Shown one piece after another: positions 33,344 to 46,813 of a stretch of 64,000 bases of DNA. The stretch comes from an uncultured Woeseiaceae bacterium. Its GTDB lineage: Bacteria; Pseudomonadota; Gammaproteobacteria; Steroidobacterales; Woeseiaceae. The DNA lies in contig CALZJH010000004.1 in the NCBI GenBank assembly GCA_945787845.1, positions 124,001 to 188,000 of the forward strand. The letters run 5' to 3'. Under the pieces are notes generated by a model. That model was not told the origin of the DNA and made no database searches. It worked only from the letters and a program-made list of their open reading frames with translations. The first letter of the stretch is position 1. Each line of letters opens with the position of its first letter. A program made the translations under genes and the position numbers.

Positions 33344-34384
33344 TCAGAAGTCCGGGTCAGGACAGTTGATCATTGGGGGATTGACGACGACCGAGTCATC
33401 GATCGAGATGCTCGATTCCTTGTCACGGCACTCGATCTGCACCATATCACCTGCCGTGTTGTACTCAATTCGCGTACCGTCCCCGGCGAACAAAGCTGCG
33501 TCGGATTCGACAACAATGCCATGGGCCGCGTTGTTGTCGACGCTGACACCACCCAGGCTGAGCGTCGAATGCGAATTCACATAGGCGCCATAGAGGCCAT
33601 TCCAAGAAATACCGCCGCCGATGAACTCCAGTGCGGAGTTAGTCTCCAGCAGAATTCCGATCTCGGCATTGGCATTTGCGTATGAGTTATCGATAATTCC
33701 CGTCGATCCCAGACTCAGGCCGATCCCGACAGGATTGCTGACACCGACATGAGTATCGCTCAGGTTAATCGACGAGCTGTTTTCGGCACGTATTCCGAAT
33801 CCATTTTCGTGGTAGTTGATCCCGCCGCCGTCGAAGTTCAACGCTGCATTATTTGTCACCAAAATACCGTCAGCACCGTTGTTCGTGACCTGCGTATTGC
33901 GAATGCGAGTTGACGCACTATTGAGCACTATGCCGGCTACGCCATTGTGTTCGACGAAGCAATCGAGGAGATTGACCGTTCCGTTCTGGGTAACGAATAT
34001 GCCGCTCCCGGTGTTCCCCGAAATATGCGATCGGATTAGCCGAATTCTGCCGTCAACGATTCTCAGGCCGTCCCCGGGCCCGGTAAAGTTGACGTCCTCA
34101 AACCAGACGCTCTTAGTGCTAAAGAATCGGGCAGTACCCACAATGGTCGTGTTGCCGTCGCCGTAGATCCTGAGATCGTCACGGTTAAACGTGACGTCTT
34201 CGTAGCACGTGCCGTACAGATTGATCTCGATCAGCTTTGCAGAGCCTGCGGCTTTGCCCAGCGCGTCCCGCAATGAATCGCCCTCGTCACAGTTGACGAC
34301 GTACGGGTTGGCCAATGCACCAGCCGCGGACAGGGTCAAACAAGCGGCACCAGCCGCCAAGAGTCTTGATAGTGAAATCTTCAT
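33344..34384 (-). CDS. Secreted right-handed beta-helix repeat protein
   Basis: The 346-residue protein has a signal peptide (about 1-25, cleavage near AGALA-NP). Most of the rest is short, irregular ~22-residue coils rich in Asn, Ser, Gly, Ile and Val (RIRNTQVTNNGADGILVTNN, INLSDTHVGVSNPVGIGLSL), the hallmark of parallel beta-helix proteins. No pectate-lyase or other catalytic triad can be picked out, so binding, adhesion or polysaccharide processing are all open. Cysteines near both ends may form disulfides. Its leader carries a c-di-GMP riboswitch behind a good promoter, so expression should follow the cell's surface-attachment state. AAAGGAGAAGG precedes the ATG. Confidence 0.85.
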   Translation of the reverse strand: MKISLSRLLAAGAACLTLSAAGALANPYVVNCDEGDSLRDALGKAAGSAKLIEINLYGTCYEDVTFNRDDLRIYGDGNTTIVGTARFFSTKSVWFEDVNFTGPGDGLRIVDGRIRLIRSHISGNTGSGIFVTQNGTVNLLDCFVEHNGVAGIVLNSASTRIRNTQVTNNGADGILVTNNAALNFDGGGINYHENGFGIRAENSSSINLSDTHVGVSNPVGIGLSLGSTGIIDNSYANANAEIGILLETNSALEFIGGGISWNGLYGAYVNSHSTLSLGGVSVDNNAAHGIVVESDAALFAGDGTRIEYNTAGDMVQIECRDKESSISIDDSVVVNPPMINCPDPDF

Positions 34385-34422
34385 CGCCTTCTCCTTTGCG
34401 GATAGGTTGTACTCCGCTCAAT

Positions 34423-34530
34423 GCGGCAACCCGGCGATCTTGGGTCCTTCGTGAAGCTGCCTGATACATCTCGGAGGAGGCGAGGACCCGTGGCTTTGCG
34501 TCTTCGACTTTCATCGAATTTGCTCTTGTC
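34423..34530 (-). promoter_or_regulatory. Cyclic di-GMP class I (GEMM) riboswitch, copy 1
   Basis: On the minus strand the leader carries the GEMM core in order: GAGCAAATTCGA, a GAAA tetraloop hairpin, the near-invariant GACGCAAAGCCACGGG, a P3 stem closed by GGGTCC (about 34485-34490) and GGACCC (about 34442-34447), and a closing strand CGCCGGGTTGCC (end near 34425). Downstream GCGGA (34413-34417) can pair either with CCGC at the end of P1 (34423-34426) or with TCCGC (34398-34402) next to the Shine-Dalgarno sequence (34390-34395). This suggests control of translation. The direction of control is not evident. Confidence 0.88.
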
Positions 34531-34539
34531 GCGATTGAA

Positions 34540-34567: not shown

Positions 34568-34617
34568 TTCTGGGAATTACTTAAACCGGTGTGAACGGCA
34601 GGCACTCTACGGACGCG

Positions 34618-34682
34618 AAAGGGCGAGTCTGGCAAAAGCCAGTGACGCAACGTCACGAAGGACCCAGGATCGCGGGGCCGCC
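34618..34682 (+). pseudogene. Internally deleted c-di-GMP riboswitch relic
   Basis: On the plus strand, AAAGGGCGAG, a hairpin CTGGC-AAAA-GCCAG, GTGACGCAA, CACGAAGGACCC and CGGGGCCGCC line up with the intact riboswitch at 46044-46150. About 50 bases, including the rest of GCAAAGCC and the 5' strand of P3 (GGGTCC), are missing. The fold cannot form the ligand pocket. No gene lies downstream on this strand; the sequence runs into the 3' end of the GDPD-like gene. Confidence 0.65.
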
Positions 34683-45955: not shown

Positions 45956-46004
45956 GTACCAGCGACGCCCGGCGCTTCGCGTTGTCTCTATGCACTTCCC
46001 AGAA

Positions 46005-46032
46005 TTGACGCAGCGAGCTCAACTGGCAAAAT
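46005..46032 (+). promoter_or_regulatory. Promoter of the second riboswitch transcript
   Basis: TTGACG (46005-46010), a 16-base spacer and CAAAAT (46027-46032) reproduce the promoter of riboswitch copy 1, including the preceding CCCAGAA. The interval 45956-46192 holds this promoter and the riboswitch and no other gene. Confidence 0.7.
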
Positions 46033-46043
46033 AAATCCTGCGA

Positions 46044-46150
46044 CAAAGGCAAACCTGACCAAAGTCAGTGACGCAAAGCCACGGGTCCTCGCTTCCTCCG
46101 CGACGCATTCTGCTACGCCACGAAGGACCCCAAGACAGCCGGGCTGCCTG
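46044..46150 (+). promoter_or_regulatory. Cyclic di-GMP class I (GEMM) riboswitch, copy 2
   Basis: The plus strand carries AAAGGCAAACC (ending 46054), the hairpin TGAC-CAAA-GTCA, the core GTGACGCAAAGCCACGGG (about 46068-46085), P3 closed by GGGTCC and GGACCC, and the closing strand AAGACAGCCGGGCTGCC (ending 46148). All conserved GEMM blocks are present in order. CCTG (46147-46150) can pair with CAGG at 46161-46164 or with CAGG at 46180-46183 inside the Shine-Dalgarno sequence AGGAGG (46181-46186), so translational control is plausible. Confidence 0.9.
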
Positions 46151-46192
46151 CCGCGTCTTACAGGTCTAATCCGAGTGGACAGGAGGTATGCC

Positions 46193-46813
46193 ATGAAAGC
46201 GCTGCAAGTTACGTTTCTTGTAATTTTCGGCTGTTTGTTCAGCACACAGGCCATTCGACACATACATGTCTACACCATTGGTTTCGAGGAATCGATCGTG
46301 GATCCGGGGACTGCCTTCTATGATGTGCAGGAACAGGTGCGAATGGAGGAATCTACCGAGGAGCTTCTCGCGGAATACGAGTCAACGCGCGCAAGTGTTG
46401 AGGAGGTTCGCAAGTCCGACCCGAGCAGAGATCAGTTCTCGATGCGCCAGGAAAATATCGAGCTGTTCACACGCCATGATGCGCTCGCATCGGAACTAAG
46501 GCAAAGAGAAAACGTAACGCGAGAAATCAGGGATCTTTGGATTTTCTCGGTCGCGGGACTGGCTCTGATTGGCGTCGGTTCGGTCCTTTACACACGGGGA
46601 ATTGAGTGGGTCGGGATGTCGTTAATCCTGCCAGGTTTCCTCGAGCTGAGCTGGTGGTCAGCGCCGTCGTTTACGCTGGGTGGGGCCGTCCGCGAATACG
46701 ATATCTTGCTTATGAACAAGATCATCCTGACCGTTGTCTCGATCGTTTTGTTGTACACGCTCTGGTTCTTTGCTCAGCGCAAGAGACGAGCGAAGCAGGG
46801 CGCGAGTTCCTGA
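46193..46813 (+). CDS. Membrane protein of unknown function under c-di-GMP riboswitch
   Basis: I do not recognise this 206-residue protein. Its layout is a hydrophobic N-terminus (about 3-20, signal anchor), an acidic helical segment of about 85 residues likely to be coiled coil (EESTEELLAEYESTRASVEE), then three hydrophobic helices (about 112-132, 138-158 and 175-195) and a basic tail (RKRRAKQG). The acidic helix probably faces the periplasm. The ATG at 46193 is preferred because AGGAGG sits seven bases upstream. Riboswitch control suggests a role linked to attachment, envelope or motility; that is inference. It converges on sixA. Confidence 0.75.
   Translation: MKALQVTFLVIFGCLFSTQAIRHIHVYTIGFEESIVDPGTAFYDVQEQVRMEESTEELLAEYESTRASVEEVRKSDPSRDQFSMRQENIELFTRHDALASELRQRENVTREIRDLWIFSVAGLALIGVGSVLYTRGIEWVGMSLILPGFLELSWWSAPSFTLGGAVREYDILLMNKIILTVVSIVLLYTLWFFAQRKRRAKQGASS

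Follow-up and report, generated by a model that had tools for sequence, protein, structure and literature searches.

A predicted class I c-di-GMP riboswitch with an extended P3 upstream of a membrane protein gene in an uncultured Woeseiaceae bacterium

The aptamer and the gene that follows it

The window analysed here is a stretch of 64,000 nucleotides from the genome of an uncultured Woeseiaceae bacterium. On its forward strand a conserved 21-bp sequence (45989-46009) overlaps a sigma-70-like promoter (46005-46032), and these are followed by a c-di-GMP-I (GEMM-I) aptamer (46038-46151), a short leader (46149-46192) and an open reading frame for a 206-aa protein (46193-46813). The initial annotation had read all GEMM-I blocks in order at this place, proposed a class I c-di-GMP riboswitch and suggested a check with the Rfam covariance model. 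Those blocks are indeed all present, and a cmscan search of the 64 kb gave a match to the Rfam c-di-GMP-I model RF01051 at 46038-46151 (+) with 56.6 bits, well above the gathering score of 35 (E 2.2e-8). The core (46040-46148) scored 123.6 bits with R1, a model of the extended sub-type described below that was built in the present analysis and has this element in its training set. The fold of class I c-di-GMP aptamers, a textbook kind of riboswitch, is known, and a GAAA tetraloop with its receptor is common in it but not required for the class. Here the P2 hairpin (46054-46069), a covarying helix, carries the loop CAAA (46060-46063) in place of the usual GAAA, and an insertion is found instead of the P3 receptor. 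When the bases are numbered according to the Vc2/Vc1 mapping of PMC4744006, the c-di-GMP-contacting bases G20 (46048), A47 (46075) and C92 (46147) and the interhelical pair C44-G83 (46072 and 46138) are all intact, and all fit the c-di-GMP type. The helices also covary as those of a c-di-GMP-I aptamer should, as judged from 45 non-redundant elements. By all the sequence-based tests that we ran the element qualifies as a c-di-GMP-I riboswitch, and its ligand would be c-di-GMP. The host genome (3.68 Mb) encodes 28 GGDEF domains and is therefore rich in c-di-GMP signalling. It holds 11 RF01051 matches, which R1 splits cleanly into five extended (107-124 bits) and five short elements (49-62 bits), beside decayed copies (34-50 bits).

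The open reading frame begins with ATG, six nucleotides after an AGGAGG, and its product is predicted to be membrane-bound. A hydropathy scan supported the signal-anchor helix at the N-terminus and further segments near 115-131 and 171-187; between them lies an acidic, coiled-coil-like segment (30-112, net charge -11), and the protein ends in a basic tail. The four helices originally proposed are thus recovered in part, as the fourth (about 138-155) appeared in nothing but a low-confidence, single-sequence predicted fold (pLDDT 60.9, pTM 0.36). The view that the protein belongs to no assignable family holds, since searches of Pfam, NCBIfam and PDB gave no relative that passed the cut-offs; the weak matches to these databases fell far below and were discarded. 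Its family is small and patchy. Close relatives were found in only three other genomes, G241 (83% identity), G199 (68%) and G035 (60%), and distant ones in G195 (28%) and G842; the homologues have in common a motif GxxExxWWSxP and a lysine in the last helix. A survey of homologues for GEMM leaders had also been proposed, and two of the three close orthologues (G241 and G199) do carry an extended riboswitch at the same place, in the two different forms of the insertion. The aptamer of G241 is almost unchanged while its flanks have diverged. In G035 the gene is present and the riboswitch is not, indicating that the gene can do without the RNA.

Anatomy of an extended P3 sub-type

We place the element in an extended sub-type of c-di-GMP-I that seems not to have been described before. 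A literature search of incomplete coverage found no paper on this sub-type or on c-di-GMP in Woeseiaceae, and Rfam does not model the feature that defines it, a 46-nt insertion in P3 (46088-46133) standing where the usual tetraloop receptor is located and containing a conserved UCCUCGCUUCCUCC and a covarying hairpin. Conservation and covariation in the 45 non-redundant elements resolve the insertion into P3b (46088-46091 with 46121-46125), a conserved unpaired strand CUUCCUCC (46092-46099), the hairpin P4 (46100-46102 with 46116-46118) and a bulge CCCCAA before GA(C/U). The marks of the sub-type, namely the inserted UCCUCGCYUCCU, the P4 hairpin and a lower P3 of CGG/CCG, are all found at 46038-46151. 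In the same 45 elements P2 covaries at six of six pairs and P4 at one, pair 62-81 (CG 19, AU 7, UG 2, GC 1, UA 1); the outer P3b hardly varies and is consequently uninformative in this respect. The contact bases are invariant except for A20 in five elements and a swapped 21-46 pair in three. The strand CUUCCUCC is nearly invariant too, which is partly set by the search pattern; in the subset found with the Rfam model, 24-31 of 31 elements agree at those positions. A hairpin UCGC/GCGA at the 5' side of the insertion was considered and P4 was preferred, as pair 52-62 of the former fails in 15 of the 45 elements and none of its pairs covaries. An alternative P3 pairing GUCCUCG with CGAAGGAC was indistinguishable from the canonical P3.

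The first base of the P2 loop, NAAA, is free (20 C, 15 G, 6 A and 4 U), whereas short elements of the same genomes mostly have a GAAA loop and a UAAG/UAU-like receptor. Most likely the P3 insertion would offer the NAAA loop a different dock, that is, a new tertiary contact. With Vc2 and Vc1 of Vibrio cholerae (RF01051) the contacts G20, A47 and C92, the pair C44-G83, P2 and the lower P3 are shared, but the extended elements have the conserved 46-nt insertion, NAAA rather than GAAA, and CUCGCUUCCUCC...CCCCAA in place of the receptor UAAG/UAU. The lower P3 reads CGG/CCG in extended elements and CCG/CGG in short elements of the same genomes. Vc1 precedes the exported-protein gene gbpA (PMC4744006), a position similar to that of the element studied here.

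Two other assignments were considered and rejected. The c-di-GMP-I-GGC family (RF03167) has the clan, the core and an open-ended P3 tip in common with our element, but its consensus has G at the A47 position, where A is found (46075), and the RF03167 score of 55.4 bits is below the cut-off of 59, which several relatives exceed. The GEMM-Ib (3',3'-cGAMP) riboswitches of Geobacter share the architecture and A47/C92; their reported preference for cGAMP goes with A20 (G20A, PMC6274999), and the base at 46048 is G.

A sub-branch of the extended elements (L047, L064, L065, L073, L079, L105, L117, L128, L148, L162, L163, L175 and L179, together with L141 and L150) shows a G-to-C change beside G20. 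We discarded the reading of this change as one in a ligand base, because the numbering of PMC4744006 and PMC9049102 assigns it to the neighbouring pair 21-46, which is swapped to C21-G46. Two members also have A20, and a change of ligand in this sub-branch is possible. Its members lack the Woeseiaceae promoter sequence wherever the upstream DNA is long enough.

The window contains a second extended c-di-GMP-I element, overlooked by the initial annotation, at 34422-34534 (-). It precedes the gene 33344-34384 (-), whose product is a secreted protein with a right-handed beta-helix (Pfam Beta_helix, 3e-17). This element has A20, as in cGAMP-type aptamers, and since its counterpart in a related genome (L109) has G20 there may have been a recent shift of ligand preference. 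A divergent extended riboswitch at 34614-34682 (+) survives only as a remnant, scoring 28.6 bits and no longer having the P3 insertion; the related genome keeps an intact copy in the matching divergent position (L109 3756-3863).

Distribution, promoter and downstream genes

Five of the RF01051 matches in the host genome are 105-114 nt long and all have the P3 insertion, as do 25 of the 28 matches of at least 100 nt taken from relatives. The insertion pattern was found in at least 111 stretches of genome contigs, and the matches listed come from many Woeseiaceae, other Gammaproteobacteria, several Thermoanaerobaculia and several Gemmatimonadota. Whole-genome searches gave several extended copies per genome in Thermoanaerobaculia and about one in Gemmatimonadota. 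MAGs are the source of most of these sequences, and not all phylum labels can be trusted; those of Rubripirellula, Rubricoccaceae and Acidimicrobiaceae are probably due to misbinning, given that the contigs are short and bear the Woeseiaceae promoter sequence. A broad presence in Pseudomonadota was rejected, as a 300-genome sample of the phylum gave matches at about control level outside the host genome and no convincing copy. Viral contigs gave no exact match to the pattern.

The putative promoter at 46005-46032 (TTGACG, 16 nt, CAAAAT, with an extended -10 TG) is a pattern match of which 0.6 would be expected by chance in the region, and it places the predicted transcript start next to the aptamer. 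Overlapping its -35 box is a copy of the 21-bp sequence TAxGTACATCCCAGAATTGAC, here TATGCACTTCCCAGAATTGAC (45989-46009). Allowing up to two mismatches, the core of this sequence was found at 73 of 115 extended elements and at none of 21 short ones, mostly 38-48 nt upstream of the aptamer, and most extended copies in Woeseiaceae sit behind it. The spacer between -35 and -10 is not conserved among extended elements, which favours selection on the 21 bp over recent block copying. The sequence also occurs without a riboswitch at two sites of the host genome, L185 (C5:4985) and L190 (C13:5753, before an epimerase-like gene), and in G035 it still precedes the orthologue of our gene, from which the RNA is absent. 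Perhaps the 21-bp sequence defines a regulon of its own, and a regulator acting there is possible.

Elsewhere in the host genome, a decayed extended element (L182, C2:372926; 33.6 bits with R1) before a penicillin-acylase-like gene retains an intact promoter sequence, and two promoter-plus-element units stand in tandem at C7:149175-149926 (L010 and L011). The first of these is truncated, and the genes behind them encode a membrane protein of 143 aa and a secreted one of 180 aa.

For 95 extended elements the median distance from aptamer to start codon is 47 nt, and 78 of the 95 downstream products have an N-terminal hydrophobic segment compared with 18 of 51 control ORFs of the window. Most of these products have no family in common and most have export signals, the families recognized being as diverse as beta-helix, GDSL lipase, Calx-beta, papain-like protease, kelch and TonB plug. 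As judged from these predictions, the genes behind extended elements are unrelated to one another, apart from encoding in most cases an exported or membrane protein. The initial annotation took the 206-aa protein for a candidate attachment or envelope factor, a role that it may have.

Control of translation and its probable direction

Only 44 nt separate the aptamer from the start codon at 46193, the Shine-Dalgarno sequence AGGAGG lies at 46181-46186, and no terminator was found on the coding strand. The short distance and the lack of a terminator make translational control of the 206-aa protein gene plausible, and the most likely level of regulation. The particular switch helix first suggested, between CCTG (46147) and the CAGG of the Shine-Dalgarno region, had to be abandoned: it was seen in an unconstrained fold, but neither of the two orthologues with a riboswitch has it, G241 having CCGG and AAGGAGG there and G199 lacking both partners. 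CAGG also occurs a second time in the leader.

When the aptamer was forced to form, the mean predicted accessibility of the Shine-Dalgarno sequence increased from 0.34 to 0.48, and from 0.14 to 0.45 for the element at 46038-46151; it rose in 18 of 37 elements and fell in four. Swapped and dinucleotide-shuffled aptamers gave the same values, so that the shift is not specific and the computed ON direction is weak, and shuffled sequences fold just as well as the full leader (z 0.58). Better, though indirect, evidence for an ON switch is provided by four to five Gemmatimonadota members (L098, L099, L118, L124 and L174), in which a hairpin of 13-16 bp is followed by a T-rich tract. The 5' arm of this hairpin is the 3' strand of the aptamer, so aptamer and terminator-like hairpin would be mutually exclusive, and these members are likely to be transcriptional ON switches.

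The explanation that we consider probable is that 46038-46151 is a c-di-GMP riboswitch acting on translation, probably as an ON switch, and that it controls one gene of a regulon of envelope and secreted proteins. The mRNA would start from the sigma-70-like promoter with its 21-bp upstream sequence, and its first 110 nt or so would fold into the extended aptamer, in which the insertion would most likely engage the P2 loop. Binding of c-di-GMP would then most likely regulate how translation of the membrane protein is initiated. As long as the RNA is unbound, the Shine-Dalgarno sequence would be buried in alternative pairings, and formation of the aptamer would free it, the ON direction being the likelier. 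The same kind of promoter and RNA precedes the set of unrelated, mostly exported or membrane-protein genes. The opposite sign, with c-di-GMP lowering translation of the membrane protein, seems to us rather unlikely. Both signs are known among GEMM-I members, Cd1 being an OFF switch (PMC9262584), and accessibility does fall in four of the 37 elements; however, it rises in more than four times as many, and the Gemmatimonadota relatives have an ON layout.

A different use of the insertion would be as a built-in anti-Shine-Dalgarno, with CUUCCUCC pairing to GGAGG in one of the two states and blocking translation with no need for a tailored platform. Such an arrangement would account for a nearly invariant strand complementary to Shine-Dalgarno sequences and for the observation that the effect stays the same when aptamers are swapped between genes, and in predicted ensembles the share of Shine-Dalgarno pairing held by CUUCCUCC was 0.158, against 0.033 for the same place in shuffled aptamers. 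Yet total masking with CUUCCUCC aptamers was not above that with shuffled ones, no more than 16 of 92 elements showed this pairing above 0.5, Gemmatimonadota copies with a terminator-like platform conserve the strand just as well, and complementarity of such a sequence to any Shine-Dalgarno is trivial; we regard this role as improbable. Least probable by far is a relic or promoter-linked repeat with no regulatory effect. Decayed copies in the host genome and the orthologue without the RNA in G035 speak for it, but here all contact bases are intact, the helices covary, and the aptamer has stayed almost the same in G241 between diverged flanks.

Beyond our preferred reading, an ON riboswitch acting on translation, there is a wider one that we put forward tentatively and consider doubtful at present. 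The P3 insertion might be a functional module of its own. It could be a new kind of tertiary receptor, with which the way class I aptamers lock on c-di-GMP would have to be redefined, or a portable strand for translation control, and together with the 21-bp sequence it might mark a global c-di-GMP regulon of exported proteins under dual transcriptional and RNA control in uncultivated sediment bacteria, the 206-aa protein being one member. The insertion, whose sequence is conserved across Gammaproteobacteria, Acidobacteriota and Gemmatimonadota, occupies the site that normally locks the fold, which suggests either a second solution for the tertiary contact or an added function. The extended sub-type would mark many uncharacterised exported proteins as controlled by c-di-GMP, and it may thus give a handle on their function in these abundant, uncultivated sediment bacteria.
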